Source: Pelagicoccus sp. (GTDB lineage: Bacteria > Verrucomicrobiota > Verrucomicrobiia > Opitutales > Opitutaceae). Taken from it: a stretch of DNA of 57,154 bases. Below the pieces are notes generated by a model. It was not told the origin of the DNA. It worked only from the letters and a program-made list of their open reading frames with translations, and searched no databases. Shown here piece by piece: positions 35,937 to 53,915 of this stretch. Location: positions 1 through 57,154 of the forward strand of contig JANQRJ010000073.1 of NCBI GenBank assembly GCA_028284635.1, written 5' to 3'. Position 1 is the stretch's first letter; each line of letters opens with the position of its first letter. A program made the translations under genes and the position numbers.

Positions 35937-37789
35937 ACCGTTATTGCCTCCCCTTGGCGTTTAGCGCCGAATTGAGCTTCGATCATCGTCGCGTAGGCCC
36001 CACGGGCCCTTCCCAGCTCCTCGTGCGTACCCACCTGGATGATACGCCCCTTTTCCAGGACGATCACTCGATCGGCTCTAGCGAGCGTCGAAGCCCGATG
36101 GGCCACGATAAAGGTCGTTCGATCTTCCATTTCCTCTCGCAAACCATCGAGGATTCGCTTCTCGGTCGAAGGATCGATAGCCGAAGTCGGATCGTCCAAC
36201 AGCAGAATCTTAGGATCAGGAAGGAGAGCCCGGGCAATGCTAAGGCGCTGCCGCTGCCCTCCGGAGAGATCGACTCCCATCTCGCCTATAACCGTGTCGT
36301 AGCCCTTCTCCAGCTTCCGTATAAACTCCTCGGCGCACGCCACTCGAGCCGCCTTCTCGACCTGCTTCATCGAGGCATTCGGATTGCCGAATCGAATATT
36401 GTCGGCGATCGACTGGCTGAATATAAACGCGTCCTGAAAGACGACTCCTACATTGCGACGCAAAACCTGGAGATCCAATCTCCTGGCATCCACTCCACTG
36501 ACCAAAACGCGACCCGAGTCCGGGTCGTACAGCCGAGGGATCAGGCTGAGAAGCGAGCTTTTCCCAGATCCGGTTTCGCCTGCCAAGGCGACAATCTCGC
36601 CGGGGCGAACGTCCAAGTCTATATCCGAAAGCGCATTGCGGCGCGGCGTGTAGGATACGCCAGCTCGCTCGAAGCGTACGCTGCCGACAAAGGGTCGCGG
36701 AACAACAGCATCGCTCGGCAGGCGAACCGATGCTTCGGAAACCAGCAACTCATGCAAGCGACGCGCTCCCGTCAGGCTTTCCTGCATCGCATTGGCGATT
36801 TGAGCGACATTGGAGATTCGATTCGCGAACTGCTGCAACAGACCGGCAAACACCACGAAACCCGCTCCAAGCGGCAAAGCTCCCTCTATCACGAGATACC
36901 CGCCGTATACCAAAAGGGCAAATAGGCTGGCATGAGAGAGCGCGTTTATGCAAGGAGCGTAGAGGCTGATGCTGCGAAAGATCCGCTTCTGCCTTTCCCA
37001 GATCTCCGTATTCATCTTACGCATACGTCCGATCGCTTGCGATTCCACGGAGAAGCCCCGAATCACCTCCGCCCCTCGGATCGCTTCTGAGAGATAGAGG
37101 ATCATCCGGTCGAAGGCCTCGCGATAGGCCATAAAAAGGGGACGCGAAACGCGGGAGAAGACAACGGACCCCCAAGCCATGAGAGGAACGAAGACCAAAC
37201 ATGCGAACGCCAGGCTAGCATGGATCCGAAACATGAAGATGGCGTAGATCGTCACCATGATGGACAAGGTTATCGCTTCGATCAAAGCCAGGTCCACGAA
37301 CGAACGAACTGCTTGTATATCTCCGGTGGCGCGATTGATCATCGCCCCGCTCGGATGCTTCGAGTAGAATCGCATGCATCCTTCCTGCAGCTTGGCGAAG
37401 ACCCTCCGCTGCAACTGTGGAGCCAATCTCCCATGCACCAAGGTAGCGGTCGAATTGGCCGCTCCAAAATAGAGCAAACCGCTGAAAGAGGCGCTGGCCA
37501 AAGCCCCCGCCGCTATCGCCAGAATGGTCTGCATCGCGGACCAGTCCTCAGGAGGCTTCAAGCCAAAAGGCCAAACCGGCGCCTTATCGCCAACCCCCGA
37601 GACAACCCCGAGGTAGTCCACGCCCAAGCCAACCAGATTCAAGCTCAGTACCGCGAAGACCGTCAACGCCACCTGCATGACCACCGCGCACGCAAAGAGG
37701 CGTCGATGCTCCCAACAAAGGCCAAGCATCCAACGCGTCAGAAAAAGGTTGCTAGCGTTTTTCTCCTCAGTTTTTCGAATAGGTCTCAA
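35933..37789 (-). CDS. ABC exporter half-transporter (subunit with degenerate Walker B)
   Basis: A 618-aa half-transporter: six helices in about 25-330, then an ATPase with Walker A GETGSGKSS (K410) and a standard signature LSGGQ at 508-512, but Walker B LLLDDPTSAID, with D533 in place of the catalytic glutamate. Heterodimeric exporters such as TM287/288 and BmrCD show the same asymmetry. It lies 117 bp downstream of phnM on the same strand with one palindrome between. Any link to phosphonate use is only by position. Confidence 0.9.
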   Translation of the reverse strand: MRPIRKTEEKNASNLFLTRWMLGLCWEHRRLFACAVVMQVALTVFAVLSLNLVGLGVDYLGVVSGVGDKAPVWPFGLKPPEDWSAMQTILAIAAGALASASFSGLLYFGAANSTATLVHGRLAPQLQRRVFAKLQEGCMRFYSKHPSGAMINRATGDIQAVRSFVDLALIEAITLSIMVTIYAIFMFRIHASLAFACLVFVPLMAWGSVVFSRVSRPLFMAYREAFDRMILYLSEAIRGAEVIRGFSVESQAIGRMRKMNTEIWERQKRIFRSISLYAPCINALSHASLFALLVYGGYLVIEGALPLGAGFVVFAGLLQQFANRISNVAQIANAMQESLTGARRLHELLVSEASVRLPSDAVVPRPFVGSVRFERAGVSYTPRRNALSDIDLDVRPGEIVALAGETGSGKSSLLSLIPRLYDPDSGRVLVSGVDARRLDLQVLRRNVGVVFQDAFIFSQSIADNIRFGNPNASMKQVEKAARVACAEEFIRKLEKGYDTVIGEMGVDLSGGQRQRLSIARALLPDPKILLLDDPTSAIDPSTEKRILDGLREEMEDRTTFIVAHRASTLARADRVIVLEKGRIIQVGTHEELGRARGAYATMIEAQFGAKRQGEAITV

Positions 37790-37906: not shown

Positions 37907-39070
37907 CTACGAAACAAGCGACCGCTGGCGAGAGCCCAGCGAGAACCTGGATACGCCATCAACCCAAGTTTCCGTCACTCGACCGTAGCCCGTTTTCGGC
38001 TCGAATAAAGTCAAGTCCGCCCGTTTTCCGACCTCCAGACTGCCCAGCTCCGCTGCCTTTCCGATAATGCGAGCCGGGTTCAAAGTGACAAGATTGACCG
38101 CGAAGCTTGGATCGATGCCATTCGCGATCATCTTGACCACGCAACCCAACATAGACGGGAAATGGTAGTCGCTGCAAAGAGCGTCGACCAAATCCTCCTG
38201 CAGCGCATCCAGGCAAGAGAGATTGCCGCAATGAGATCCGCCACGATAGTAGTTTGGAGCCCCCATACAGACGCTCATTCCGAGCTCCTTGGCTCGTCGA
38301 GCGGCCTCTATCGTAGTAGGCATCTCGGCAAGCGTTACTCCCATTTCGAAGGCTTCGTCCACATGTTCCACCGTAGTGTCGTCGTGACTGCCGATGCACA
38401 CCTTTCCGGCAAACGTATCGCGTACCTTGCCGCGATTGTTTATCAATCGATTCCTCTCGATGCTCTCCCGCAAGCCGTCCATCGCTTCCTCGAAGGTCAC
38501 CCCATTAGAAGCCGCCCGCTTTCTTGCTATATCCTCCAAGCTGCGAAACTGACGTTCGCCTGGAATGTTCTCGTTGTAGACAATATTGCCGATCGATTCG
38601 TAATCCGCCAGCTTCGCCAATATCGAGTCAACTGGCTCGAAGTTCGTGTCCCAGCGAATATGCATATAGTGGCGAGCCGACGACAACTTGGACAGCCGCT
38701 CGTACTCGTCAGCCAAGGCCATCCCATTGTTCGCCCTAAGCGGATGGGTCTTGCCCTTGTGGTCATCCGAAATCCGAACCGCTCCCAAGATCGTAGTAAG
38801 TCCAGAGGCGAGAGCTCGCGTATCCATCATATGGAAAGCCAGTTCCGCAGGAAAAGCCGCGCTCGGTCGGGGGTGCAGCTCGCGCTCGAAATAGTCCGTA
38901 TGAATGTCGATCACTCCAGGAATGAGCCATTGTCCCTGGGCATCGTATCCTTCGCTGTAGCTTCGATGCTCCTCTATCGAGGCGATAATGCCGTCCTCCA
39001 CTACGAGCGTACCGACGAAGCTCTCGGCAGGCGTTACAATACGGGCGTTTGTTATTATTGTTCTATTCAT
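37907..39070 (-). CDS. phnM: PhnM-like amidohydrolase, divergent at metal-site motifs
   Basis: 387 aa. Canonical PhnM removes pyrophosphate from ribose-1-phosphonate-5-triphosphate. Here HTD (57-59), GSHDD (227-231), MGAPN, RGGSH and SDYH are kept, so the fold and part of the metal site are clear. The family stretch LMDHxPGQRQ is NENIPGERQ (166-174), so its histidine is lost, and the LRCE motif reads IRWD (138-141). It is the last phn gene, 216 bp after phnE behind two REP pairs. The altered sites suggest a changed metal centre or substrate. The family call is firm; the standard reaction is doubtful. Confidence 0.82.
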   Translation of the reverse strand: MNRTIITNARIVTPAESFVGTLVVEDGIIASIEEHRSYSEGYDAQGQWLIPGVIDIHTDYFERELHPRPSAAFPAELAFHMMDTRALASGLTTILGAVRISDDHKGKTHPLRANNGMALADEYERLSKLSSARHYMHIRWDTNFEPVDSILAKLADYESIGNIVYNENIPGERQFRSLEDIARKRAASNGVTFEEAMDGLRESIERNRLINNRGKVRDTFAGKVCIGSHDDTTVEHVDEAFEMGVTLAEMPTTIEAARRAKELGMSVCMGAPNYYRGGSHCGNLSCLDALQEDLVDALCSDYHFPSMLGCVVKMIANGIDPSFAVNLVTLNPARIIGKAAELGSLEVGKRADLTLFEPKTGYGRVTETWVDGVSRFSLGSRQRSLVS

Positions 39071-39111
39071 GGTTGTTCACTCAGAGTGTTGGATAAGTCC
39101 AGTTTTCCAAC

Positions 39112-39264
39112 GTAGCGGGGTTTGTGGGAACGCGGGCCTCCCATACGAGATTCCGCGTCCTCACGAACCCGGCTACACAATCGCGGGACTTGATCGGCTT
39201 ATTCAACACGCTCTCAGGTAGGGACGGACCGCTCCCGACTTGTCGGGAGCGGTCCGTCCCTACC
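39112..39264. repeat. Two adjacent REP pairs (families C and D) between phnE and phnM
   Basis: 39112-39176 is an imperfect family C pair (GTAGCGGGG to CCCGGCTAC). 39217-39264 is a compact family D relative: GGTAGGGACGGACCGCTCCC then a GACTTGTC turn and the exact complement, a 23-base perfect stem. The second could work as a strong terminator or processing site. Confidence 0.7.
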
Positions 39265-39286
39265 TCGGAAATTCTTTCGAAGTTCG

Positions 39287-40126
39287 TCATCTCAAGTGCG
39301 TATCGACGTTCAATATTCGTTTTCTGACGAAGTCCGACACTCTCTCCATGAGGAGAACAAGCGCGATGATGCAAATCGTGTAGGCGAGCATGTCCTTGTA
39401 TTGCAGCATGCCTTTCGAGCGTTCCAATTCGAAGCCGAGACCGCCTCCACCGAAATAGCCCAGCACGATAGCCCGACGCAGATTCACGTCGAAGATGTAG
39501 AAAAGCGTAGAGACGAAGCTAGGAGCGACTTGCGGCAAAATCGCATAGCGAATCGTCTGCCACCGACTGGAGCCGAGGACCTCAAGCCCCTCTACCGGCT
39601 TAGTATCCACATTCTCGATAGCATCCGCGCAAAGCCGACCGCAAAAGCCGATGCTCGCTACCGTGAGCGCCAAGGTCGAAGTGAAAGGCCCTACACCCAC
39701 AATCGCGATGAGTATGAGAAGCGTCGCAAACTCGGGAATCGCCCGCTCCACCGAGAAGAGGGTGCGCATCAGGCTGCGAATCTTCCTCGAAGGCGCCGTG
39801 TTTTGGGCAGCGAAAAAGGATAGTCCCGTCGCTAACGTTCCTCCAAACAGAGTACCGAGAAACGCCGCGGAAATAGTTTCGCCAATCGAGTCGTAGAGCC
39901 CCTTCGACTGGAAGAGCAATCCAAGCTTGGGCGGCACCATGTCTTTGACCAGATTGGAGACATGGTCGAATTCGGTGATGAAAACGAAGGGATTGACCTC
40001 CAAAGCGAAAAAGAGCCCGCCAATGCAAACCAGGCACGAGACCGCGATCGCCGTGCGCTCCCAAAACTGACGCGAAGGGCGCTTGTACGGACCAGCCAGT
40101 TCTTTTTTCGATAGAGCAGCATCCAT
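39287..40126 (-). CDS. phnE: PhnE-type phosphonate ABC permease, second subunit
   Basis: A 279-aa inner-membrane permease with about six helices. The ABC contact loop EVLGSSRWQTIRYAILPQVAPSF is at about 178-200, followed by NLRRAIVLGYFGGGGLGFELE, typical of PhnE. It lies 1 bp after the first PhnE, so the two subunits probably make a heterodimeric permease with PhnC. Residue differences from the neighbour are spread throughout, so this is an old duplication. Confidence 0.9.
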   Translation of the reverse strand: MDAALSKKELAGPYKRPSRQFWERTAIAVSCLVCIGGLFFALEVNPFVFITEFDHVSNLVKDMVPPKLGLLFQSKGLYDSIGETISAAFLGTLFGGTLATGLSFFAAQNTAPSRKIRSLMRTLFSVERAIPEFATLLILIAIVGVGPFTSTLALTVASIGFCGRLCADAIENVDTKPVEGLEVLGSSRWQTIRYAILPQVAPSFVSTLFYIFDVNLRRAIVLGYFGGGGLGFELERSKGMLQYKDMLAYTICIIALVLLMERVSDFVRKRILNVDTHLR

Positions 40127-40127
40127 A

Positions 40128-40928
40128 TCAGACTAGCGCGCTGCCGCGAGCGGTTACCTTCTTGCGTAAAACATCCGAGATGCGTTCGGAAACGAGCACT
40201 AGGACTACGATCATCAGGATAGCGGTCGTCGCTTGATTGTAGTCGCTCAAATCCATCGCCTTCCCAAGTTCGTAGCCGATGCCACCCGCCCCGACCGCGC
40301 CCAAAACAACCGAAGCTCGAATATTGATCTCGAAACGAAATATGAGATTCGAAATAAACACGGGCAGCACTTCCGGAAGAATTGCGTATCGAATAATCTG
40401 AGACCGAGTCGCCCCGACGATCTCGACTGACTCCAGGACCTTGCTGTCCACCTCTTCGATCGCATCCCCGAGCAGCCGCCCAAGCATGCCGATGCAGCCG
40501 ATCGCCAAAGCCACGATGCCAGCGAAATAGCCGATACCGAAAACCACGATCAGAAAAAGCAAGGTCACGATCTCCGGCAGCGCTCGCTCGACGGAGATCA
40601 ATCCGCGAGCCGTCGAACGAAGCGGACCAGGCGATATGTTCTTGGCAGCCGCCAAACCGAAGACCAAAGACGCCAGACCGCCCAGCGGCGTCGCGAGCAG
40701 CGCCATCGCCACGGTGATCAAGGACTCGCGAGCCATCACGCCGAGAACCGAGAGATCCGGAGGCAAATGCTTGCCGAACTGGGAGATCCCCTTGTCCACG
40801 TTGGCGAAGAGCAACGCAAGATCCACGTCCGCCTGCCAAGCGGCCAGCCATACGACAAGGGCTAGGAAAAACAGAAAGGATGCAGGCCGACGATAGCGCC
40901 TGAAGTCGTATTCATTTCTCGGCGACAT
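40128..40928 (-). CDS. phnE: PhnE-type phosphonate ABC permease, first subunit
   Basis: The start at 40928 (MSPRNEYDFRRYRRP) is chosen because GGGAAAG lies about 8 bases before it; the open frame runs on upstream through repeat DNA. The 266-aa product has about six helices, the loop EIVGATRSQIIRYAILPEVLPVF and NIRASVVLGAVGAGGIGYELG. It lies 345 bp after phnC, a gap with two palindromic structures, and is coupled to the second phnE. Confidence 0.88.
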   Translation of the reverse strand: MSPRNEYDFRRYRRPASFLFFLALVVWLAAWQADVDLALLFANVDKGISQFGKHLPPDLSVLGVMARESLITVAMALLATPLGGLASLVFGLAAAKNISPGPLRSTARGLISVERALPEIVTLLFLIVVFGIGYFAGIVALAIGCIGMLGRLLGDAIEEVDSKVLESVEIVGATRSQIIRYAILPEVLPVFISNLIFRFEINIRASVVLGAVGAGGIGYELGKAMDLSDYNQATTAILMIVVLVLVSERISDVLRKKVTARGSALV

Positions 40929-41273
40929 AGCAGCTTTCCCATAAATTAAGGCCACGAATCCTGCTTTCTCTGGAGCCGATGCCATTGAAAGGGCATCTTG
41001 GAGAGTTTCCAAAAAGTTGAAAACACTGCTTAATAGGTAGGGACCGATCGCCGAGCGGTCCGCATTGCAGGATAATGATTTTGCCATCAATGATTTTGCT
41101 TCTTTCCCCACTTTCGGCAGTGAAATCAGCTTTTTGCAAAATCATTGATGGCAAAATCATTTTTTCGAGAAACAACGGGAATAGAAGAGCATGCTTTGAT
41201 TTGCTCCTTCGGAACGCAATCCTGACTGAAGAATGAATATTCTGTTTTTATATAACTTTCTACAAGAGCAGTT
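40929..41273. other. Gap between phnC and phnE with palindromes
   Basis: A 345-bp gap with no gene. It holds a lone family D left arm (41036-41071) and, right beside it, a 26-base perfect inverted repeat (41074-41161). The upstream part, next to phnC, is AT-rich (TTTTTATATAACTTTC near 41246) and could carry a promoter on either strand. Confidence 0.45.
41036..41161. repeat. Truncated family D arm joined to a 26-base inverted repeat
   Basis: GGTAGGGACCGATCGCCGAG and CGGTCCGC form only the left half of a family D pair. Directly after it, 41074-41099 and 41136-41161 are exact complements, each arm made of two AATGATTTTGC units separated by CATC. The loop is 36 bases. The missing right D arm suggests that the second repeat replaced it. 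Confidence 0.75.
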
Positions 41274-42125
41274 TTATGATGTCGCGACATTGGGTCGCAG
41301 CTTGGTTTCGTACGTCGTCGGCGCCGCTACCGTTCGCGCGGCCGGCCTATCCTGAGCGACGCCCTCGATTTCTTCGCCCTCGTAGATCGAGGCCAATGTC
41401 GCGGCGCTGAGCTTCGGGTCTCCATCGTAGACAATGCATCCATCTTTGATCGCGATCACTCGGGAGCAAAACTCCGCAGTCAAATGCGGCTGATGAAAGA
41501 CGCCTACCACTGGCTTGTCCTTGGAAAGCGGCTTAAGCAGCTCCATGACCTTGCGGGCGTTTTTCGGGTCCAAACTAGAAACCGGCTCGTCAGCCAGATA
41601 CACCGATGGCTTCTGATAGATAGCTCTGGCAATCGCCACTCGTTGCTGCTCTCCTCCGCTCAGATTGCCCACGCGACGACTGGCATAGTCCTCCATGCGC
41701 AAGGACTTCATCACTTCGTAGGCCTCCTTCGCTTCGGTATCCGTAAATCCATACAACCAGCTCCTGAGCGGCGATATCGTCCCAAGACGACCCATCATGA
41801 CGTTCTCCAGCGCGGTGAGGCGCTTCACGAGATTGCCTCCCTGAAAAATCACTCCCATCTCCTTGCGCATCTCACGCAACTGCCGATCTTTCAGTCGGGC
41901 GATATCGAGTTCGTGTCCCTCGCCCGACGAACTCCGAAACGAAAATCTAATCTCTCCCTCGCTCGGCTGCACCAGCCCAAGCATGCAGCGCAAGGTGAGC
42001 GACTTGCCCGCGCCACTAGCGCCGAGAATGCCGACGAATTCTCCCGGCTCCACCTTGAAACTTATATCCGACAAGAGGCTGCGCCCATTGGGCAGTTTCT
42101 TGCAAAGTCCTTTTACGTGTATCAT
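41274..42125 (-). CDS. phnC: PhnC-type phosphonate ABC ATPase, phn locus 1
   Basis: A 283-aa ATPase: Walker A GASGAGKS near 37-44, signature LSGGEQQR near 154-161, Walker B VYLADEPVSSLDP, and the H-loop histidine in GVFHQPHL. The overall pattern, with VIFQGGNLVKRLTALENVMMGR, is that of PhnC. The C-terminal 30 residues after EGEEIEG are an unassigned tail. It serves the two PhnE and two PhnD proteins encoded around it. phnD lies 118 bp upstream, separated by a REP pair. Confidence 0.9.
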   Translation of the reverse strand: MIHVKGLCKKLPNGRSLLSDISFKVEPGEFVGILGASGAGKSLTLRCMLGLVQPSEGEIRFSFRSSSGEGHELDIARLKDRQLREMRKEMGVIFQGGNLVKRLTALENVMMGRLGTISPLRSWLYGFTDTEAKEAYEVMKSLRMEDYASRRVGNLSGGEQQRVAIARAIYQKPSVYLADEPVSSLDPKNARKVMELLKPLSKDKPVVGVFHQPHLTAEFCSRVIAIKDGCIVYDGDPKLSAATLASIYEGEEIEGVAQDRPAARTVAAPTTYETKLRPNVATS

Positions 42126-42147
42126 TATTCGATTACTGTAGATCCTC

Positions 42148-42214
42148 GTAGCCGAGTTCGTAAGAACGCGGTCTCTATTTCGTTTTCGCAGCGCGTTCTC
42201 GCGGACGCAGCTAC
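42148..42214. repeat. REP pair, family C
   Basis: GTAGCCGAGTTCGTAAGAACGCGG starts just inside the left end and the right arm ends GCGGACGCAGCTAC. Mini-hairpins are GTTC/GAAC on the left and CGCGTTCTCGCGGACG on the right. It lies between phnD and phnC. Confidence 0.65.
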
Positions 42215-42243
42215 ATTCTTTTCAAATCCCTCATATACAGAAG

Positions 42244-43170
42244 CTATTTCAGCATCTCCATGCCCTTGATTCTGGAACTGAGCTCCCGCATAGGCTGGAA
42301 CACGGAGTCATCCATAGCGATGTAGTCGCCAACCGGATCGCGCCGAAATTTATTGCTTTCCTCCTGGAGAAGCTGGTTCAGCTCCGGGTCGAGCCTCGCC
42401 ATGTCCAAATGCGCCTGACGAATGGCGGCTTTCAGATCGGAAGGAAGGGATCGACGAACGGATAACGCTCCACTGGGAATAGGGTCCGATTTCCAGATGA
42501 TCTTCAGATCCGACTCCTTCACCTTATCGTAGAGCTGAAGCTTGATCAACACGCCACTCGAGATAGCAGCGGCATCCACCTTGCCTGAAATTACCGAAAG
42601 AGTCGTCGCGTTGTGCTTGCCGGGAAACACGAGTTCCTTGAAGTCGCTTTCCGGATTGATATCCATCTGCTCCAGGAAATAGCGAGGAATCAGATGGCCG
42701 GAGGTCGAGGCCGGGTTTACAAATGCGAAGCTCAAATCTCCAGCTTGCTCCTTCAGCTCGTCGATCGAATCGATATCGCTGTCGCCCCGAACCACGATAT
42801 AGGAATAGGAAACTCGAACGCCGCCATTTTGATCTCCTCTACCAACCAAGGCTTCGGCGCCCGCCTTTTTCGAGGCGATAAGATAAGGGAAGGTACTGTA
42901 GTTCGCTATATCGATCTTGTCCGCCCGCATGGCCTCGATAACCGGTCCGTACTGAGTAGTCTTGACGACATCGATCTCTATACCGAGCTGGCTCTCGAGA
43001 TATTTCGCTCGCTTCATATAGATCATCTCCCGGCGGCCAGGCTCCTCCTCGTCTGGCGTGTAGGCGAAACGCAACTTGGTCGGCCAGCCACGCTCATCCA
43101 CTTGCACGTCCTCGGTGCCTACGCAACCGCATAGCACGATGGAGAACAGTATCCAGATTCCAATACGCAT
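42244..43170 (-). CDS. phnD: PhnD-type phosphonate-binding lipoprotein (second of two)
   Basis: A 308-aa substrate-binding protein. The signal peptide ends in the lipobox LCGC (C16), so it is anchored to a membrane by lipid. The two-lobed PhnD fold shows TTQYGPVIEAMRADKIDIANY, FAFVNPASTSGHLIPRYFLE and VFPGKHNATTLSVISGKVDAA. It starts 1 bp after the other phnD gene. Both have the PASTSGHLIP loop that holds the phosphonate group in this family. Two binding proteins with one ATPase suggest a wider substrate range. Confidence 0.9.
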   Translation of the reverse strand: MRIGIWILFSIVLCGCVGTEDVQVDERGWPTKLRFAYTPDEEEPGRREMIYMKRAKYLESQLGIEIDVVKTTQYGPVIEAMRADKIDIANYSTFPYLIASKKAGAEALVGRGDQNGGVRVSYSYIVVRGDSDIDSIDELKEQAGDLSFAFVNPASTSGHLIPRYFLEQMDINPESDFKELVFPGKHNATTLSVISGKVDAAAISSGVLIKLQLYDKVKESDLKIIWKSDPIPSGALSVRRSLPSDLKAAIRQAHLDMARLDPELNQLLQEESNKFRRDPVGDYIAMDDSVFQPMRELSSRIKGMEMLK

Positions 43171-43171
43171 C

Positions 43172-44110
43172 TTAGTTGAGCATATCGATGTTAGCGACTC
43201 TCGAGGCCACTTCCCGGATAGGATCGTAGTGACTATCGTCTGCCAGCATGTAGCGACTCTCGGGATTCGCCGAATACGTGTATATTCGCTTAACCTCCTG
43301 CCAGACTTCCGGATACTCGCTCGGCAGCTCGACCAGAGCGCTTTGAATCGCCAGCTTCAGACTATCCGGCAGGCCTTCTCTCACCGCGATGCAACCATCC
43401 GGGATAGCAGGCGAAGTCCAGACGACTTTAAGCTCGTCCGGGTCGATCCGGCCGAGGCTCACCAGCTTGCGATAAGTGTTCTGGCTGACGCAACCTACAT
43501 CGACCTTTCCAGAGAGCACCGAAAGCAAAGTCGCATTGTGCTTGCCGGGGAATACCAGCTCCTTGAAGTCTCGCTCGGGATAGATGCCCTGCAATTCCAA
43601 GTAGGCCCGCGGAATCAGATGCCCGGAAGTCGAGGCCGGGTTCGCAAAGGCGAAGCTAAGCTCGCTTCCATGCCGCTTGAGGTCCTCAAGCGAATCGATG
43701 GGGCTGTCTGCCCCCGTCAGGATCAACGAATGGTAGCCATTAGGCCCTGCTTCCGTACCCCGAATCACGATACACTCCGCTCCAGCCTTCGCCGAAGCGA
43801 GAATGTATGCAAAGGTTCCATACATGCTAATGTCCACCTTGTTGGCCCGCATGGCCTCGATCACCGGCCCGTACTGAGTCGACCTCTTCAAATCCACTTC
43901 CAATCCAAGTCGCTCGCCCAGATAGGCGGACAAACTGTCGATAGCGTCGAAACGCAGCCCCGGGACTTCCTCATCCACCCAATAGGCGAATACCAAACTG
44001 CGAGGCCAGCCGCGCTCGTCGAGCCTGCCTTGCCCATCCGAGCATCCCGCTAGCAAACAGGCGGCGACCAGGCCCAGAAAGATAAACAGCTGTCTTGCGC
44101 GAGCGAGCAT
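43172..44110 (-). CDS. phnD: PhnD-type phosphonate-binding lipoprotein (first of two)
   Basis: A 312-aa lipoprotein with lipobox LAGC (C23 region) and the PhnD fold: STQYGPVIEAMRANKVDISMY, FAFANPASTSGHLIPRAYLE and VFPGKHNATLLSVLSGKVDVG. It is a clear paralog of the next gene, with the ligand loops nearly the same and the hinge and second lobe more different. phnL ends 8 bp upstream. Confidence 0.9.
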   Translation of the reverse strand: MLARARQLFIFLGLVAACLLAGCSDGQGRLDERGWPRSLVFAYWVDEEVPGLRFDAIDSLSAYLGERLGLEVDLKRSTQYGPVIEAMRANKVDISMYGTFAYILASAKAGAECIVIRGTEAGPNGYHSLILTGADSPIDSLEDLKRHGSELSFAFANPASTSGHLIPRAYLELQGIYPERDFKELVFPGKHNATLLSVLSGKVDVGCVSQNTYRKLVSLGRIDPDELKVVWTSPAIPDGCIAVREGLPDSLKLAIQSALVELPSEYPEVWQEVKRIYTYSANPESRYMLADDSHYDPIREVASRVANIDMLN

Positions 44111-44118
44111 CTACTCTC

Positions 44119-44838
44119 CTATGCGGTCGCCGCCTCTGCCTCGCAGATGCGCCCACCGACTAGTTTCAGCTCGCGATCGGCAAGCTTGGTCAACGTATAC
44201 TCGTCGTGGGTGATGAGTATCACGGAGGTACCCGAACGCTTCATTTCCAGAATAGCCTCTATCACCACGTCCTTGGTTTTCTGGTCCAAGGAAGCGGTCG
44301 GCTCGTCGATCAGCAGAAAACGCGGCTGCGATATAATGGAACGGGCCACGTTGATCCGCTGCTGCTCTCCGCCAGAAAAAGTCGAGGGATAGGCATCCCA
44401 AAGTTCGGCTGGCAAACCAAGCCGTTCGAGGAACTCTCTCGACCGGCGGAACGCTTCGTTTTCAGCAACCCCCTTGACAAGCAAGCTCTCCGCCACGATT
44501 TCGACCGCCGGGACTCGAGGAATCACATTGAGAAACTGCGAGCAGTAGGTCATCTCCTCCTTGCGAATGCGGAGTATCTGGTGCTCGGTGGCCTCGATAA
44601 GGTCGATAGGCCCGAAGGTCGAGGAATCGTACACCATGCTCTCGCCACTTGCCAGATAGGTCCGATACACGCACTTCATCAGGCTGGATTTGCCGGAACC
44701 GGACTTGCCAGTCAGGCCGATAATCTCGCCTTGGTCCATGCTGAAGGAAATATCCTCCAGAGCAGGTATATGCTTGTCGTTGAGGATATGCAGCAGAAAA
44801 TTTTTGGATAGATTTCTGACTTCTAGAAAATGTTTCAT
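44119..44838 (-). CDS. phnL: PhnL-type ATP-binding protein
   Basis: 239 aa, an ABC-type ATPase of the C-P-lyase set: Walker A GKSGSGKSS near 43-51, the family stretch YCSQFLNVIPRVPAVEIVAE, signature FSGGEQQRINVAR and Walker B LLIDEPTASLD with the glutamate kept. PhnL is needed for C-P lyase function with PhnG, H and I in making the ribosyl phosphonate. It is separated from phnK by 133 bp containing a family D palindrome. Confidence 0.9.
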   Translation of the reverse strand: MKHFLEVRNLSKNFLLHILNDKHIPALEDISFSMDQGEIIGLTGKSGSGKSSLMKCVYRTYLASGESMVYDSSTFGPIDLIEATEHQILRIRKEEMTYCSQFLNVIPRVPAVEIVAESLLVKGVAENEAFRRSREFLERLGLPAELWDAYPSTFSGGEQQRINVARSIISQPRFLLIDEPTASLDQKTKDVVIEAILEMKRSGTSVILITHDEYTLTKLADRELKLVGGRICEAEAATA

Positions 44839-44842
44839 GGCA

Positions 44843-44926
44843 AGGTAGGGCTCGATCGCCGAGCGAGCCGCGTCGGTTTGGTTTCTGCAAGGCTTCGCGG
44901 ACCGCTCGGCGATCGGTCCCTACCTT
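44843..44926. repeat. REP pair, family D, between phnK and phnL
   Basis: The left arm reads AAGGTAGGGCTCGATCGCCG and then AGCGAGCC, a GGCTCG/CGAGCC mini-stem. The right arm has the GGACCG/CGGTCC version. Both bases of the pairs have changed together, so the hairpin rather than the exact sequence is being kept. Confidence 0.75.
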
Positions 44927-44971
44927 CTCTAAACAGTATTCTCAATTTATCTGACATGCTCCTGTCTGTTT

Positions 44972-45823
44972 CTATAGCAAGCTGCTTACCAACAGCTGAG
45001 TATAGGCATGCTGTGGGTCCTGCAATATCTGGTCGGTCAATCCGGACTCCACGATACGACCGTTCTTCAGTACCATAGTGCGATCCGTCAGCATCCGAAT
45101 CACGCTCAGGTCGTGGGAGACCACGATCATGGAAATGCCGAGATCCTGCTGCAGTCCGCGAATCAGATCCAGGACCTTCGCCTGTACGGAGACATCCAAT
45201 CCGGTCGTCACTTCGTCCAGGAATATGAGAGGCGGATTGTTCGCGATCGCCTTGGAGATCTGTACGCGCTGCTGCATGCCGCCACTGAAGGTCGCAGGCG
45301 CGTTGTCCATGCGTTCGACCGGCACCTCGGTCTGCGTCAGCAAGGAACTAGCCCGATTTCGGATGCGGCCGACATTGAATTCGTTGGCCATGAGAAGCTT
45401 CTCGGCGATGTTGCCGCCCGCCGAGAACTTGAAATTCAGTCCGTCTCGAGGATTCTGATACACCATCCCCATCAGGTGGTTTCTCAGATAGCGCTTCTTT
45501 TGGTTGGTGACGCGAAGGATGTTCGTGTCGCCATCTTCAAACGAGCGAAAATAGACTTCGCCACCGGTAGCCTCGCCATCGAAGTAGAGAAGCTGCACCA
45601 GCGTACTCTTGCCCGATCCGCTTTCCCCGACCACGCCAAGCACTTCGCCTGGATAAAGATCGAAATCGATCTCCGCGCAAGCCACGATCGCGTCTGTCTC
45701 CGGACAAATATTGCTGCCGAACTTGGGTCCCGTGTACGCGATCGAATTGGAAATCGGATCGCCGTAGATCTTCGTCAAGCCACGAACTCTCAGCAGCCAG
45801 TTATCTGTGTTGTCTTGTACCAT
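44972..45823 (-). CDS. phnK: PhnK-type ATP-binding protein with cysteine-poor N-terminal insert
   Basis: 283 aa, an ABC-type ATPase that binds the C-P-lyase core at PhnJ. Walker A GESGSGKST is near 67-75, signature FSGGMQQRVQISKA, Walker B LIFLDEVTTGLD with the glutamate kept. Residues about 22-48 are an insert (TGPKFGSNICPETDAIVAC) missing from E. coli PhnK. In many PhnK proteins I recall this insert carrying two CxxC pairs; here only isolated cysteines remain. It starts 15 bp after phnJ. Confidence 0.88.
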   Translation of the reverse strand: MVQDNTDNWLLRVRGLTKIYGDPISNSIAYTGPKFGSNICPETDAIVACAEIDFDLYPGEVLGVVGESGSGKSTLVQLLYFDGEATGGEVYFRSFEDGDTNILRVTNQKKRYLRNHLMGMVYQNPRDGLNFKFSAGGNIAEKLLMANEFNVGRIRNRASSLLTQTEVPVERMDNAPATFSGGMQQRVQISKAIANNPPLIFLDEVTTGLDVSVQAKVLDLIRGLQQDLGISMIVVSHDLSVIRMLTDRTMVLKNGRIVESGLTDQILQDPQHAYTQLLVSSLL

Positions 45824-45838
45824 CTGCGTCTACCTACC

Positions 45839-46723
45839 TTAGCTCGGGTTGACGAAAAGCCGCTGATTCGGGCGTCCGCCTAGTTTGAGTTTGTCTAGAA
45901 AGTTACTGTCGTTGATCACGTGCTTACGGCCGCCGTCGGCTTCGTAGATCTCGTCCATGAACGCGTCTCCCTCGCCCGTAACCGAACATCGGATACCTTC
46001 GAATTTCTCGACCATGAACTTGACGTCTTCAAACTCGAGCGGCTCGACCAATGTGTGGGGCGGCACGCAGTGTATTCTCTTTTCCCGCCCAGCAGCGAAG
46101 ACGTGCAAGGTATCGCTATGGCTTAGATTCGGCACGTCCCAACGGGGTATCGGCGAAGGCGTCATGATATACCGGCCATTCACTTTGACCGGATAGCCCG
46201 CCCCTCTCATTATCGCTCCGAATTTGACGTAGGACTCGTAGAGCGAAACCCACATCTTGGCGTAGTCCGCTTCCGCGTGCATCTGACGAGTCTTGAATTC
46301 AAAGCGTTCCACGCCACGCAGTATCTCGGGCTGCGGCACCTGGAAGACGATGATCTGCTTGTCCGTCAACACCTCCTCCGGGATTCGGTGGCGAGTCTGC
46401 ACGATCGTCGCATCGGCCGTGTCGAAGGTCGTCTTGCAACCCGTCATGCGCTTCACGAAGTTCCGCAGGTTGCAGGCATTGACGCTCGCATCGCTGCCTT
46501 GGTCGATGATCTTGAAAGTGTCATCCGGGCCGATCAGCGAAAGCGTGGCATGGAGCCCGCCCGTTCCCCAACCTCGGGAAATCGGCATCTCGGGCGAGGA
46601 GTACGGCACCTGGTATCCAGGAATCGCCACCGCCTTGAGCATCTTGCGACGAATCTCCTTTTTGGTCGACTCGTCTATGAAGCCGTAGTTGTAGGCCTGT
46701 TGGAATTTTTTCGCCTCGATCAT
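45839..46723 (-). CDS. phnJ: PhnJ-like C-P lyase subunit lacking three of four catalytic/cluster cysteines
   Basis: 294 aa, aligned throughout with E. coli PhnJ. Canonical PhnJ is a radical-SAM enzyme using a [4Fe-4S] cluster (C241, C244, C266), a thiyl-radical cysteine C272 and a glycyl radical at G32. Here G36 in AVAIPGYQVP matches G32, and C246 matches C241, but the other positions are T249, I270 and L276 (CSVTG, then HVINDSNFL). The reading frame is intact to a normal stop and flanking residues align, so this is not a frameshift. It overlaps phnI by 4 bp. It cannot bind the usual cluster, so standard C-P cleavage is doubtful. Confidence 0.88.
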   Translation of the reverse strand: MIEAKKFQQAYNYGFIDESTKKEIRRKMLKAVAIPGYQVPYSSPEMPISRGWGTGGLHATLSLIGPDDTFKIIDQGSDASVNACNLRNFVKRMTGCKTTFDTADATIVQTRHRIPEEVLTDKQIIVFQVPQPEILRGVERFEFKTRQMHAEADYAKMWVSLYESYVKFGAIMRGAGYPVKVNGRYIMTPSPIPRWDVPNLSHSDTLHVFAAGREKRIHCVPPHTLVEPLEFEDVKFMVEKFEGIRCSVTGEGDAFMDEIYEADGGRKHVINDSNFLDKLKLGGRPNQRLFVNPS

Positions 46724-47898
46724 AGCAATTCTGGCGAAGCGTCCGCCAACTCTTGGGATTGGGTATTCAACATTGTCTTAGGCTTTTTCGCGCCCGCATT
46801 CCTATCTTCCTCGTCGCGACGCTTCATCGCGTTGCGCAGGTTGTCCAAACCGGACTGGAAGGTCACGTAGTGCGGCAGCTTCAAGTGGTTCGTAAATCCG
46901 TAGGACTCTATCCCTTCAGTATGATATAGCACGAACTCCTGGCTATTGGCCGGATGCTCATCGGCTACTCGCATAGAGCGGTCCAATATCCCCATGCCAA
47001 TCGCCTTCGTCTCGTTGTGGCCAAAGCACAGTCCGTATCCAAGAGACATATACGGAACGGAGCTTTTGCCTTTCTGCTTCAGTTTGGAAACGATTTCGCA
47101 TTCCGTCACTCGGATTCGACCGATATAACGAGAACGACCACGACGATCTCTCACCGATACGCCAACATGCCCGACCCGAAGCTCCCCGATTGTGGGATGG
47201 GCCGATCCAAAACCGCGCATCGAAGAATATGCCAGGGCCGCAATGCCACCCGTTTCAGCCCGGGCCAGCATCTGCAACGCGGCGGAACGTGGAGCGGGGA
47301 ACTTTATCGCCTCGCGGGTGACATCGACAACCCTCCGCTTTTCCTCTTCTTCATCCTCGTCGACAGGCCGGAGAATGCCCTGCTCCTTGAGCATATCCAC
47401 CACCTTGCAAAAGGAGCGAGGCGCCTCTTCATCCGAGAGTTGCAATTCCGAGTCGATATCTTCCAGAAACGACTTAACGGACCCGAACGTCTCGCTAGCC
47501 AAATCCGTATTGAGAAGACGCACCGTGTAGTCGCGCGTCGGGCCGAGAATCTGACCGCCCGGAATCTCGCGAAAGGCGGAGGAAATTCTTCTCTCCACCC
47601 TCATCGATCTAGTATCGAGAATGGTGGAATAATAGGAGCGCTTCAATGTCGCTCGATAGGCGCGAAGCATGAACGCCCCTTCCAGAGTACATCCCTCGAC
47701 CTGCTTCAAAGCGAGTGCGGCATGCTCCGGCGCGTAGAGCGATCCCTCTCCCATGATACGGTCGATGCCCGCGCGAAACTGCGTCTTGACTTGCTCGATA
47801 GTCAAGGGAGGCGACTCGCTCTTCAGTCGCTCGTATTCGACAAGCCGCGAAGCATTATCGATAGCATCCTCTCCCCCTTTTATAGCGACGTATCCCAT
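46720..47898 (-). CDS. phnI: PhnI, C-P-lyase core nucleosidase subunit
   Basis: 392 aa, about 38 longer than E. coli PhnI because of an acidic insert near 140-195 and a C-terminal tail. The start MGYVAIKGGEDAIDNA is the family start. Key stretches are kept: MRVERRISSAFREIPGGQILGPTRDYT in part, LAYSSMRGFGSAHP, and H338 and H343 in HLKLPHY, which match the metal-binding histidines of E. coli PhnI at the PhnI-PhnJ interface. So this site is preserved although the PhnJ cysteines facing it are not. It follows phnH by 12 bp. Confidence 0.9.
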   Translation of the reverse strand: MGYVAIKGGEDAIDNASRLVEYERLKSESPPLTIEQVKTQFRAGIDRIMGEGSLYAPEHAALALKQVEGCTLEGAFMLRAYRATLKRSYYSTILDTRSMRVERRISSAFREIPGGQILGPTRDYTVRLLNTDLASETFGSVKSFLEDIDSELQLSDEEAPRSFCKVVDMLKEQGILRPVDEDEEEEKRRVVDVTREAIKFPAPRSAALQMLARAETGGIAALAYSSMRGFGSAHPTIGELRVGHVGVSVRDRRGRSRYIGRIRVTECEIVSKLKQKGKSSVPYMSLGYGLCFGHNETKAIGMGILDRSMRVADEHPANSQEFVLYHTEGIESYGFTNHLKLPHYVTFQSGLDNLRNAMKRRDEEDRNAGAKKPKTMLNTQSQELADASPELL

Positions 47899-47910
47899 AG
47901 CGAAAAACTC

Positions 47911-48525
47911 CTATACTATTTCAATCTTAGTAGACCGCGGCAGACAGCAAATGCAGGGCTCATCCGTTTCGTCGCTAAACGAGAGATAGGTATCTACGCC
48001 GAGAGGAAACTCCGAATTCTTCTCCATTAGGGCGTCGATCCAGGAAGCCTCTAGGCCCTTCACCCAAATCATCCGTTCGTTTCGAACTCCTGGGCCGGTA
48101 AGGCGGATTTGGAGCGCGTCATCGGCAAGGCTGTCGTCAACCAGTTCAACCTCGACAATGATGGAAGACCCGGTTTCGGGGTAAGTCAGAATCCCCTCCT
48201 TGACGAACCTAACGAAATCGGGATCGTCCGAACCCTGCGCTAGAACGAAATCGGCCTCGCCTAGCTCGCTGGGCAAGCAGCCTGTATTCACGCTAAGATA
48301 CTCCTCGATCCTATTGGAACCTTTCGTCAGAAAGTAGCTCGTATCGCCATTGAGCAAAGCAAGACAGGCATACGCGGTAGCGCGATTCATACCTGTCGGC
48401 ACCGCTATATCGATTGCTTGTAGAGTCACTATCTTCCCCGGCCGCGCCATTGCGTCCAACAGGGATCTGAAGTGCATCTGCGCATCGAAGACTTCCTTAT
48501 AGTTAGCTTCTCTGACCAGACCCAT
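47911..48525 (-). CDS. phnH: PhnH, C-P-lyase core subunit
   Basis: 204 aa. The N-terminal FDAQMHFRSLLDAMARPGKI is the PhnH family signature, followed by AYACLALLNGDTSYF and a C-terminal region with FPLGVDTYLSFSD. PhnH has a PLP-transferase-like fold without the cofactor and is part of the G2H2I2J2 core. It starts 1 bp after phnG and is probably coupled to it. The C-terminus, EPCICCLPRSTKIEI, matches the usual CxLPRT-type end. Confidence 0.9.
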   Translation of the reverse strand: MGLVREANYKEVFDAQMHFRSLLDAMARPGKIVTLQAIDIAVPTGMNRATAYACLALLNGDTSYFLTKGSNRIEEYLSVNTGCLPSELGEADFVLAQGSDDPDFVRFVKEGILTYPETGSSIIVEVELVDDSLADDALQIRLTGPGVRNERMIWVKGLEASWIDALMEKNSEFPLGVDTYLSFSDETDEPCICCLPRSTKIEIV

Positions 48526-48526
48526 C

Positions 48527-48997
48527 TTAGTCTTCCTCCATTAGTTTGAAATCGACCCGAGTGCTGAGCGTCCTGGAAAAGTCCAAGGTCTCGCGCTCTC
48601 GAATGGCTTCCGCCTGCTCGCGCAGGAAGCGATCGATCCGCTCGTCCGAGACGCCTCCGATCACCAAGGCATCGATAAATGCAATACAGTACCCGCGCGT
48701 CGGATCTTCGCCCAGGCAGAGGCCGTAGCCACTCATTCCGTCCACGCTAAGCTCGCATTCCGTGGTCAGCGCCTCGCCAAGAAAGAACTCTTGTTTTTCA
48801 AGGGAATCCTCCGCTCTCACCATGGTGAGGCAGACGGAAGGTTCCTTGGCGATTTTGACTTCATGGACCTTTTCCAAGTCCTCCACGAGGGCCTTGAGCG
48901 GTTCGAGCGGACATTCGCATAGAATGTAGTCAGTATCGTATTCCATCTTCTGAAAGCAGTCTCCCACCTCTTTGTTAAGAAAGGATGAAGCACGCAT
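48527..48997 (-). CDS. phnG: PhnG, divergent C-P-lyase core subunit
   Basis: 156 aa, first gene of the phn operon. Weak but consistent family features are TMVRAED, FFLGEALTTECELSVDG, YGLCLGED and FIDALV, plus a C-terminal TRVDFKLMEED of the usual TxVDF type. The family N-terminal RxRWMxxLA motif is absent. The start at 48997 has no good ribosome site; an alternative ATG at 48946 is preceded by GAGGTGGGAG at a loose distance. The call rests partly on position before phnH. Confidence 0.8.
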   Translation of the reverse strand: MRASSFLNKEVGDCFQKMEYDTDYILCECPLEPLKALVEDLEKVHEVKIAKEPSVCLTMVRAEDSLEKQEFFLGEALTTECELSVDGMSGYGLCLGEDPTRGYCIAFIDALVIGGVSDERIDRFLREQAEAIRERETLDFSRTLSTRVDFKLMEED

Positions 48998-51244: not shown

Positions 51245-52081
51245 GTGGAAGCCGAAGCAGCAAAGAACTACGCCCTCCGGATTCGCGGCACGGGCAAGAC
51301 ATTCAACCAACACAAAGCCCTCGACTCGATTGATCTCGACGTAGTCAAAGGCGAAATGGTCGCCCTTATCGGTCCCTCCGGCTCGGGAAAGTCCACCCTG
51401 CTTCGCCTTTGCAACGGCCTGCTCGTCGCCGATCCAGACCGGAATTCGTCCATCTGGGTAAACGGTTCGCAAATCCAGGAGGCGGGACGGCTCTCCAGCG
51501 GCATCCGAAAGGCCCGTTCCCGCATCGGCTTCGTCTTCCAAAGCTTCAACCTCGTAGGACGGCTCTCGCTCCACAAGAACGTGCTCGTCGGACGCAGCGC
51601 CCACACCCCGCTATGGCGGAGTCTTCTACTCCTTCATCACGACCGCGATCGACGGAAAGCCATGGAAGTGCTCGCATCCGTCGGCCTAAGGGGCAACGCA
51701 GAGCAAAGGGCCAGCACTCTTTCCGGCGGACAGAAGCAGCGCGGAGCCATCGCTCGGGCCATCGCCCAAGGAGCTGAGCTCATACTGGCAGACGAGCCCA
51801 TCGCTTCGCTCGACCCGAGTTCCGCCCAAAGCGTAATGGCCATCCTCAAGGAGCTGAACCGAAGTCTCGGCATCACCGTGCTCGTGTCGCTCCACCAAGT
51901 CGATGTCGCCCGACGCTACTGCGATCGCGCCATCGCCCTGAGCAAAGGGAGCATCCACTTCGACGGGCCGATGGAAGATCTCGACGACGCCCTTCGCTCG
52001 CTTTACGGCGACCAAATCGAGCTTGGCGCCCCTCTCCAACTAGAACCGCAATCGAACTCGGAAAAAGTATCCATCGCATGA
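51245..52081 (+). CDS. phnC: PhnC-type phosphonate ABC ATPase, set 2
   Basis: A 278-aa ATPase starting with GTG. Walker A GPSGSGKST near 43-51, Q-loop FVFQSFNLVGRLS, signature LSGGQKQRGAIARA and Walker B LILADEPIASLDP, with the H-loop histidine in VSLHQVDVARRYCDR. The pattern is that of E. coli-type PhnC. Its stop overlaps the phnD start by 4 bp. It differs clearly from the phnC at 41274, so the two systems are not a recent duplication. Confidence 0.92.
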   Translation: MEAEAAKNYALRIRGTGKTFNQHKALDSIDLDVVKGEMVALIGPSGSGKSTLLRLCNGLLVADPDRNSSIWVNGSQIQEAGRLSSGIRKARSRIGFVFQSFNLVGRLSLHKNVLVGRSAHTPLWRSLLLLHHDRDRRKAMEVLASVGLRGNAEQRASTLSGGQKQRGAIARAIAQGAELILADEPIASLDPSSAQSVMAILKELNRSLGITVLVSLHQVDVARRYCDRAIALSKGSIHFDGPMEDLDDALRSLYGDQIELGAPLQLEPQSNSEKVSIA

Positions 52082-53100
52082 CTACAGCATCACTGTGGCG
52101 CTTCGCGCTCGGCGCCCTCGCGACCGCAACAGCCGCCCTCTTTCCTTTCTTCCAAGCCGCGAGCCAGTCGACGCCTGCTCCGCAGAAGCTCTCTCTGGGC
52201 ATCATCTCGACAGAGTCCTCATCCGAACTTCGCAAGGGATTCGACCCCTTCATCGACAGGCTTTCCCAGAGGCTGGATATGCCAGTCAAAGCGTATTTCG
52301 CCACCGACTACGCCGGAGTCATCGAAGCCATGCGCTTCAACAAAATCCAACTCGCCTGGATGGGCAACAAATCGGCCATCGAAGCGGTCGATCGAGCAGG
52401 AGCGGAAGTATTCGCCCAAACTACCAAGGCCAACGGAGATCAAGGCTACCACTCGGTCATAATCGTCAGACGCGACAGTCCTTTCCAAACGATCGACGAC
52501 CTCCTGGCCAAGCGTGAAGAACTCGCATTCGGAAACGGCGACCCCAACAGCACCTCGGGCTATCTCATCCCATTCCACTACCTCTGGACTCCGCGCGGCA
52601 TCAACCCGCAGTCCGATTTTAAACACACCCGCAACGCCAACCATGAGGTCAACTGCATTGCCGTCGCCATGGGCCAGATCGACTTCGCCACCGCCAACGA
52701 CGAGGCCCTCTACCGTCTTGGAATCGTGCGCCCGAAGCTCGCCCAGCGACTGCGCGTCGTCTGGCAAAGCCCTACCATTCCCAACGATCCACTCGTCTGG
52801 CGCAAAGACCTGCCCGAGGAAACCAAACGCCAAATCAAACGCGCCATCATGCATTTCGGACGCAAAGGCCCCGATGCCGCGAAAGAGCGAGAGATCCTCG
52901 CTGGGATAAGAGACGGCTGGGGACCTTTTCTCGACTCCGACGACAGCCAGCTCCTGCCCATCCGCGAAATCGCTCTGGAAAAGGAACGCCAGTCCATCCT
53001 GAGCAACAAGCGTCTCGATTCGGACGAAAAAGCGACCCGTATCCAAGCATTGGAGGCGCGACATCTCGAGCTTCTCGCCGCCCACGGAGGCTCTGAATGA
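52078..53100 (+). CDS. phnD: PhnD-type phosphonate-binding protein, set 2 (E. coli-like)
   Basis: A 340-aa periplasmic binding protein with a signal peptide (about 1-30, ending near AASQS). It resembles E. coli PhnD strongly: YAGVIEAMRFNKIQLAWMGNKSA, AVDRAGAEVFAQT, LAFGNGDPNSTSGYLIP, HEVNCIAVAMGQIDFATAN and IPNDPLVWRKDLPE. It is not a lipoprotein, unlike the two in phn locus 1. It overlaps phnC and phnE by 4 bp on each side. Confidence 0.93.
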   Translation: MTTASLWRFALGALATATAALFPFFQAASQSTPAPQKLSLGIISTESSSELRKGFDPFIDRLSQRLDMPVKAYFATDYAGVIEAMRFNKIQLAWMGNKSAIEAVDRAGAEVFAQTTKANGDQGYHSVIIVRRDSPFQTIDDLLAKREELAFGNGDPNSTSGYLIPFHYLWTPRGINPQSDFKHTRNANHEVNCIAVAMGQIDFATANDEALYRLGIVRPKLAQRLRVVWQSPTIPNDPLVWRKDLPEETKRQIKRAIMHFGRKGPDAAKEREILAGIRDGWGPFLDSDDSQLLPIREIALEKERQSILSNKRLDSDEKATRIQALEARHLELLAAHGGSE

Positions 53101-53915
53101 GAGTCGGCACCGTTCCTCAGAACCTGGTAGCGAGCGAACTCGCGCCCCCTCGGCTCTCTCTCCGACAGAAGCTGATTCGTCTAGGCTGCGCGATCGCCCT
53201 TCTCGTCCTTTTCGCCTGGGCCTATAAAGGGGCGGAAATCCGTATCCACGATCTCTGGACATATCGGGAAAACATGGTCGAGTACGCCATGGGCTTCACC
53301 CGACCCGATTTCCTGCAGTGGCCCCAGTACATCGCGGACATGACCACCACCCTGCAAGTCGCCCTCTGGGGCACCGCCCTCTCCATTGCTTTCGCCGTAC
53401 CCTTCAGCCTGCTCTGCTCCTCGAACCTCAGCCCATTCTGGATACGCCAGGCCACCCGTCGCCTCATGGACGCCCTGCGCTCCATCAACGAACTCGTATT
53501 CGCCATGCTGTTCGTCTCCGCCATCGGCCTCGGCCCGTTCGCCGGAGTTCTCGCCCTCTTCGCCCACAATCTCGGCACCCTCTCGAAGCTCTTTTCCGAA
53601 GCCGTCGAAGCGATAGACGAAGGCCCGCTGGACGGAGTGCGAGCCACCGGAGCAAGCCGACTGGTCGAGATCGTGTACGGAGTCCTGCCCCAAGTTCTCC
53701 CGCTGTGGACTTCCTACTCGCTCTACCGATTCGAGTCGAACGTGCGCTCCGCCACCGTGCTCGGCATCATCGGAGCCGGCGGCATCGGCACCCCCCTTTT
53801 CGAATCCATCCGCAGCTTCGCCTACTCCCAGACCGCCGCCATCCTCATAATCATCATAGTCGCCGTCAGCCTGATCGACCTCGCCTCCGCCCGCATCCGC
53901 AAAGCGCTTATCTAG
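53097..53915 (+). CDS. phnE: PhnE-type phosphonate ABC permease, set 2
   Basis: A 272-aa permease with six or so helices. The ABC contact loop GVRATGASRLVEIVYGVLPQVLPLW is followed by SNVRSATVLGIIGAGGIGTPLFE, the PhnE signature. It is the only permease in this set, so it would form a homodimer, in contrast to the two-permease set at 39287-40928. Confidence 0.93.
   Translation: MRVGTVPQNLVASELAPPRLSLRQKLIRLGCAIALLVLFAWAYKGAEIRIHDLWTYRENMVEYAMGFTRPDFLQWPQYIADMTTTLQVALWGTALSIAFAVPFSLLCSSNLSPFWIRQATRRLMDALRSINELVFAMLFVSAIGLGPFAGVLALFAHNLGTLSKLFSEAVEAIDEGPLDGVRATGASRLVEIVYGVLPQVLPLWTSYSLYRFESNVRSATVLGIIGAGGIGTPLFESIRSFAYSQTAAILIIIIVAVSLIDLASARIRKALI

Follow-up and report, generated by a model that had tools for sequence, protein, structure and literature searches.

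A PhnJ lineage lacking radical-SAM cysteines, and a possible cluster-free route to C-P bond cleavage

The window analysed here, a stretch of 57,154 nucleotides from Pelagicoccus sp. (contig JANQRJ010000073.1), contains a phn operon whose PhnJ keeps only the C241 equivalent of the four cysteines C241, C244, C266, and C272 of E. coli PhnJ. Such proteins, which we refer to as Cys-less PhnJ, were found in 36 genomes of Verrucomicrobiota, Acidobacteriota, Bacteroidota, and Chloroflexota. Since C244, C266, and C272 are absent, the published [4Fe-4S] site and the thiyl cysteine cannot form; judged from its sequence, the window protein is thus unable to carry the published C241/C244/C266 cluster plus the C272 thiyl, in agreement with the claim of a preliminary description that the radical-SAM reaction in its published form is impossible here. 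Our leading explanation, held at a little under even chances, is that these operons encode a cluster-free C-P-lyase (PhnGHIJKL) subfamily that completes cleavage at a Zn/His site.

The phn operon of the window and its PhnJ

The phnJ gene (45839-46723, minus strand) is an intact ORF of 294 aa that matches PF06007 with 404.6 bits (E 2e-121, cut-off 25, profile positions 2-271 of 275). In a phmmer alignment against PDB chain 4xb6_D from E. coli, C246 falls opposite C241, T249 opposite C244, and I270 opposite C266; this alignment ends at residue 275. A MAFFT alignment places L276 at C272 and G36 at G32, and the PDB alignment concurs with it at these sites as far as residue 275. The codons of the degenerate iron-sulfur motif (45896-45988, minus strand) were read directly as TGT for C246 (45986-45988), ACG for T249 (45977-45979), ATC for I270 (45914-45916), and CTA for L276 (45896-45898), and the codon for G36 is GGA (46616-46618). 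The family assignment, both alignments, and the codons therefore all bear out the preliminary description, which had identified a PhnJ with G36 kept and these four residues at the key cysteine places. An AlphaFold model of the protein (pLDDT 88.5) superposes on chain 7z19_H with an rmsd of 1.3 over 272 columns (TM 0.95 by target), and the window PhnJ is accordingly predicted to adopt the E. coli PhnJ fold.

PhnG, H, I, J, K, L, and M are encoded together (37907-48997), with all genes on the minus strand. Upstream of phnJ are phnG (48527-48997, 156 aa with C56, C81, C94, and C104; PF06754, 76.2 bits), phnH (47911-48525, 204 aa; PF05845, 135.7 bits), and phnI1 (46720-47898, 392 aa with H338/H343 kept; PF05861, 435.5 bits). 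Downstream are phnK (44972-45823, 283 aa), for which TIGR02323 is the best match at 239.4 bits, under its cut-off of 302.85, and phnL (44119-44838, 239 aa), for which TIGR02324 is the best match at 250.9 bits, just under its cut-off of 256.3. These are followed by two phosphonate-type binding proteins, phnD1 (43172-44110; PF12974, 201.3 bits) and phnD2 (42244-43170; PF12974, 189.2 bits), by the transporter ATPase phnC (41274-42125; best match TIGR02315 at 241.7 bits, under its cut-off of 266.1), and by the permeases phnE1 (40128-41111) and phnE2 (39287-40126), which exceed the TIGR01097 cut-off with 236.6 and 233.3 bits, respectively. The last gene, phnM1 (37907-39070), is of the ribosyl-phosphonate triphosphate diphosphatase type (NF011990, 282.4 bits, above cut-off), and its match to TIGR02318 (305 bits) falls under the cut-off of 390.55. 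Many loci carry several divergent PhnD copies, and in three Bacteroidota loci (L025, L027, and L028) a PhoB-type regulator and phnN adjoin the operon.

Family matches identify a pair of MsbA-like ABC exporter genes (34137-35936 and 35933-37789, minus strand; together 34137-37789) adjoining the operon. A similar pair lies beside the phn operon, on either side, in eight Verrucomicrobiota or acidobacterial loci or regions (L014, L015, L017, L023, L024, L029, L101, and L106), a neighbourhood that suggests the exporters could be part of the phn system. Downstream of the exporters, MotA/TolQ/ExbB-type and DUF3450 genes (30956-34025) may form a TonB-energising set, and a separate phosphonate-type transporter set (51245-53915, plus strand) with a PhnC-like ATPase, a PhnD-like protein, and a PhnE lies beside the operon.

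Distribution, ancestry, and selection of Cys-less PhnJ

The 36 distinct genomes comprise eight of the window's family, one further genome (G528), 15 others (G550-G564), eight further Chloroflexota, and four further members of the Mucilaginibacter order. All 36 retain the equivalents of C241, Gly32 (G36), and His108 (H112). In the window's family, PhnJ is present in 8/200 genomes, all eight with C241 and without the C244, C266, and C272 equivalents, and it was found in 0/7 other genomes of the window's genus; the nearest named relatives by PhnJ belong to the Opitutaceae of Verrucomicrobiota. A phylum-level draw around the window gave PhnJ in 8/387 genomes, with five Cys-less and three bearing all four cysteines. 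Among 300 genomes of the Mucilaginibacter order, all six PhnJ are Cys-less, and among 301 Chloroflexota genomes, 27 carry PhnJ at 28 loci, nine of them Cys-less, with two of the 19 cysteine-bearing loci (L147 and L158) ending before the last cysteine position.

A contig scan of named genomes was queried with the peptides MHAEADY and AFMDEIY; it is clade-biased and gives no measure of frequency. Among the best 80 of 164 relatives, identity to the window PhnJ steps from 70% to 63%. Above this step, C266 and C272 are absent in every locus among these 80 (Verrucomicrobiota, Acidobacteriota, and Bacteroidota), while below it all four cysteines are present except in three Cys-less Chloroflexota loci and in L089, an actinomycete copy with an apparently frameshifted end. 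The Bacteroidota Cys-less loci include two named Mucilaginibacter strains, one of which is Mucilaginibacter oryzae DSM 19975 (L025). A single Cys-less locus, from Bryobacteraceae (L018), has kept C244; in all others this position holds Ser or Thr. The C266 and C272 positions hold Ile, Val, Met, or Leu, and the latter also holds Ala or Val in Chloroflexota. These substitutions resemble, by analogy, metal sites that have lost their metal and become packed. The C241 equivalent is kept in all Cys-less PhnJ and may therefore have a role of its own.

The preliminary description had proposed a search for a second, canonical phnJ. No second PhnJ was found in the window's genome (4.57 Mb, 104 contigs), and each of the 36 Cys-less genomes has exactly one PhnJ match, so that no canonical second copy was found and a hidden one was rejected. 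Several other unusual loci were encountered. The chloroflexotal genome G852 carries a pair of canonical PhnJ separated by about 12 kb (C2:183351-184166 and 196174-196995; L142 and L169). In Actinoplanes sp. TBRC 11911 (L085:9965-11752), a phnJ with canonical cysteines is fused in a 596-residue frame to a PhnK-like ABC ATPase, a part judged by eye. The Cys-less phnJ of G528 (L012:1474-2391), from the same order as the window and another family, has an in-frame TAG for which decay or sequencing error is possible. A selenocysteine reading of the stop-containing canonical ORFs L030, L034, L042, and L070 was rejected, as the stops fall outside the gene, on one side or the other.

For phylogenetic analysis, we used 78 of 85 PhnJ references (alignment A3). 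L030, L034, L042, and L070 were excluded for stops in the extracted sequence, L085 as a fusion, and L073 and L083 because they were taken to duplicate L009 and L010; the set of 85 had itself been cleared of the broken copies L012 and L089 and of six loci whose genomes were otherwise represented. In a maximum-likelihood tree of these 78 proteins with the C-terminal domain removed, the 23 Cys-less rows fall on one side of a single branch. This is the clade with shared losses and conserved gene order that the preliminary description had proposed to look for, and the trait of having neither C266 nor C272 requires one change of state on the tree. Support is 100/98 for a subclade of 20 rows from Verrucomicrobiota, Acidobacteriota, and Bacteroidota, and 82/85 for the branch joining the Chloroflexota rows to the Cys-less group; because the tree is unrooted, it does not separate gain from loss of the cysteines. 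G36, R111, H112, Q128, C246, and D272 are invariant in 78/78 PhnJ. The Cys-less clade is under purifying selection: the dN/dS comparison suggested in the preliminary description gave medians of 0.109 across residues 10-237 and 0.231 across the C-terminal domain (19/190 pairs with usable dS). The corresponding medians for canonical pairs, which are more diverged, are higher at 0.231 and 0.498 (376/1485 pairs).

Candidate sites of phosphorus release and competing readings

According to the passages drawn from PMC9947105, the cluster site of the E. coli enzyme lies 30 A from Gly32, and a Zn2+ held by PhnI His328/His333 at the PhnI-PhnJ interface marks a second putative active site. There, PhnJ Arg107, His108, Gln124, and loop 47-50 contact a ligand modelled as PRcP, with R107/H108 facing the Zn2+; the PRcP was modelled into density and mass spectrometry could not confirm its identity, while a PRcP-like ligand was seen at the Zn site even without phosphonate supplied during expression (same passages, PMC9947105). 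In the window, PhnI H338/H343 correspond to H328/H333 and PhnJ R111-H112 (46388-46393, minus strand; invariant in 78/78 aligned PhnJ) to R107/H108, and the Zn histidines of PhnI1 are retained in 23/23 clade members (20/20 of the subclade and 3/3 Chloroflexota). As far as the residues indicate, this second presumed active site is intact in the Cys-less family.

In the known pathway, PhnN (ribose 1,5-bisphosphokinase) and a phosphoesterase act on ribose 1,5-bisphosphate and PRcP, after cleavage. The window's genome encodes PhnN on another contig (C24:38735-39268; 223.4 bits, cut-off 156), in a second phn cluster (L109) together with phnI2, an Exo_endo_phos-like gene (28% identity to an L027 gene so named by Pfam), phnM2, a protein with two H-x-T motifs, a TIGR03308 transferase, and phnD3. 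The H-x-T protein has weak, though mutually consistent, matches to 2H phosphoesterase families (LigT_PEase in 8/9 members, best E 4e-4; 2H-phosphodiest in 6/9), with the one member examined in full falling under the Pfam cut-offs; its predicted fold has a pLDDT of 38.9, and a profile comparison with a DUF1045 pair found no similarity. In the window's family, PhnN exceeds its cut-off in 7/8 PhnJ-bearing versus 0/192 PhnJ-lacking genomes, in a survey of related, non-independent genomes with at most 16 candidates scored in each. The 2H-type protein is found in the same 7/8 genomes and again in 0/192, by a profile built with five of the seven carriers (G020 and G177 were not contributors). Since both proteins act after cleavage in the known pathway, their co-occurrence speaks for continued release of phosphorus into PRPP in this family. 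Across phyla, PhnN is above cut-off in 12/24 Cys-less genomes tested, being absent at that level from all five acidobacterial genomes, three Chloroflexota genomes, G063, G554, G559, and G550, the last of which has a best match of 153.7 bits, just under the cut-off of 156. No PhnP scored above cut-off in the 24 genomes, although its cut-off of 272.25 is met by E. coli alone among 14 controls; the best score in the window's genome is 89.7 bits, and weak matches also occur in 10/13 non-E. coli controls. The 2H-type and Exo_endo_phos proteins may stand in for PhnP.

The second cluster also contains PhnI2 (C24:37163-38305; L109:8164-9306), which lacks both Zn-binding histidines, the first being Ser in 8/8 aligned sequences and the second D, E, A, N, or S, and which in the window's genome lacks the MGYVAxKGG N-terminus. 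A second PhnI is present in 10/10 Opitutales-type Cys-less genomes (one as a fragment, and two copies in G550) versus 0/14 others, and a mixed PhnI1-PhnI2 core is possible.

Taken part by part, it is probable that cleavage still takes place, and there is a somewhat less than even prospect that it proceeds without any radical. In the route that we propose, PhnC with two PhnD and two PhnE would import phosphonate-like substrates, PhnGHI with PhnL would couple the substrate to the ribose of ATP, and PhnM would trim the product, as the conserved genes suggest. Phosphorus would then be freed at the site formed by Zn2+, the PhnI histidines, and PhnJ His112, Arg111, and Gln128, with no radical on PhnJ. 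Most likely, the 2-OH of the ribose would attack the phosphorus and so form the 1,2-cyclic phosphate (PRcP), a reaction that would suit substrates whose leaving group is better than methyl. A 2H-type phosphoesterase or an Exo_endo_phos protein would open PRcP, and PhnN would return the product to PRPP. This route requires no additional components and is compatible with the Chloroflexota members, in which the extra cysteines are absent. Against it, simple displacement would not be expected to cleave an unactivated alkyl C-P bond, the TIGR03308 transferase nearby hints at ordinary aminophosphonates, and the strict conservation of Gly36 would also fit a surviving glycyl radical.

That last point leads to the strongest alternative, a relocated redox centre, which we consider unlikely. 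Here cleavage would remain radical, with a Gly36 radical generated via C56, C81, C94, and C104 of PhnG (codons within 48686-48832) or by a separate activating enzyme, and with C84 and C96 of PhnJ (46436-46474, minus strand) perhaps serving as a relay. The invariance of Gly36 in all 78 PhnJ favours it, and the extra cysteines of the subclade would fit such a centre: C84 is present in 20/20 and C96 in 19/20 subclade rows versus 1/15 canonical rows each, and PhnG reads CCCC at its four positions in 12/16 subclade members (CCCS in 2/16 and GTCC in 2/16) versus 0/54 canonical proteins, which also have C56 in 0/54. It should be noted that the PhnG profile also caught PhnI, to which PhnG seems to be related, and 21 such rows were removed before counting. 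However, the Chloroflexota Cys-less members have neither cysteine set (C84 and C96 in 0/3, PhnG GACA in 2/2), two Allomuricauda/Muricauda MAGs are short of two of the four PhnG cysteines, and three Bacteroidota PhnJ rows (L026, L173, and L175) lack C96, a residue also found in three actinomycete rows (L086, L089, and L090). Moreover, the annotated genes, in the part of the flanks that was covered, included no activating enzyme. We favour the non-radical Zn/His reading, itself tentative, over a moved redox centre.

The preliminary description had suggested that ribosyl phosphonates might be handled without cleavage. A complex that just makes or remodels such compounds could explain the loss of the published catalytic cysteines, the conserved exporter pair that adjoins the operon in loci of Verrucomicrobiota and Acidobacteriota, and the 12/24 genomes in which PhnN is not above cut-off. 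Yet the PhnN and 2H-type phosphoesterase that co-occur and cluster in the window's family would have no evident role, and importer genes and a PhoB-type regulator lie alongside, so that this suggestion is disfavoured and we regard it as improbable. Similarly low is our estimate that the true substrate is a P-O, P-N, or P-H compound taken up via PhnD, which PhnGHIJ would ribosylate before expelling the group by cyclisation. The divergent PhnD copies, the intact non-radical site, and the PRcP-like ligand of E. coli complexes produced without phosphonate (passages of PMC9947105) all accord with it, but PhnM and PhnD are of the types found in phosphonate operons. In addition, phosphatases render so costly a route to phosphate esters unlikely. 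Finally, a decaying gene or an assembly error has a negligible chance and was rejected for the clade, as a related copy with an in-frame TAG (L012) is outweighed by the same loss in 8/8 PhnJ-bearing members among the 200 family genomes and in three other phyla, 36 genomes in all, by purifying selection, and by the intact ORF and operon; the view of the preliminary description that the operon is not decaying thus holds, and the sequencing or assembly error that it had listed as a refutation is excluded in practice.

Relation to known systems and implications

The E. coli C-P lyase core (PDB 4xb6 and 7z15-7z19) is the closest point of comparison, with a shared fold (rmsd 1.3-1.7 over 272-277 columns at 50-51% identity), a shared GHIJKLM gene set, and conservation of Gly32, Arg107/His108/Gln124, C241, and the PhnI Zn histidines. 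The window PhnJ differs in lacking C244, C266, and C272, and the subclade differs from most canonical proteins in the added cysteines of PhnJ and PhnG. The PhnN/PhnP branch is alike in that half of the Cys-less genomes tested have PhnN above its cut-off, near phnM2 and phosphoesterase genes where examined in the window's family, and different in having no PhnP above a cut-off that discriminates poorly. Glycyl-radical enzymes with separate activases exist, and Cys-less PhnJ shares with them a conserved glycine, here within PGYQVP, which could be structural; they differ in that the annotated flank genes of Cys-less phn loci include no activase. In PMC11978286, the four PhnJ cysteines are treated as conserved and are checked. 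A search of open-access titles and abstract openings found no mention of a Cys-less PhnJ.

The Cys-less subfamily would represent categorically new chemistry only if the Zn/His reading proves true. According to the passages of PMC9947105, how C-P lyase breaks its bond is an open problem, with the cluster and the radical glycine 30 A apart and the Zn site as a second candidate. In a natural subfamily that has the Zn site and is without the cluster ligands, evolution has separated the two sites and the question becomes testable, with the named strain Mucilaginibacter oryzae DSM 19975 available for the purpose. A bolder and more doubtful proposal is that four phyla harbour a second C-P lyase with no PhnJ cluster or thiyl, possibly oxygen-tolerant, and that the Zn/His site is the true bond-breaking centre. 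Counts of phnJ as a marker of methane-yielding phosphonate cleavage may include genes without such a reaction, and the textbook mechanism of C-P bond breaking may not be the sole one.
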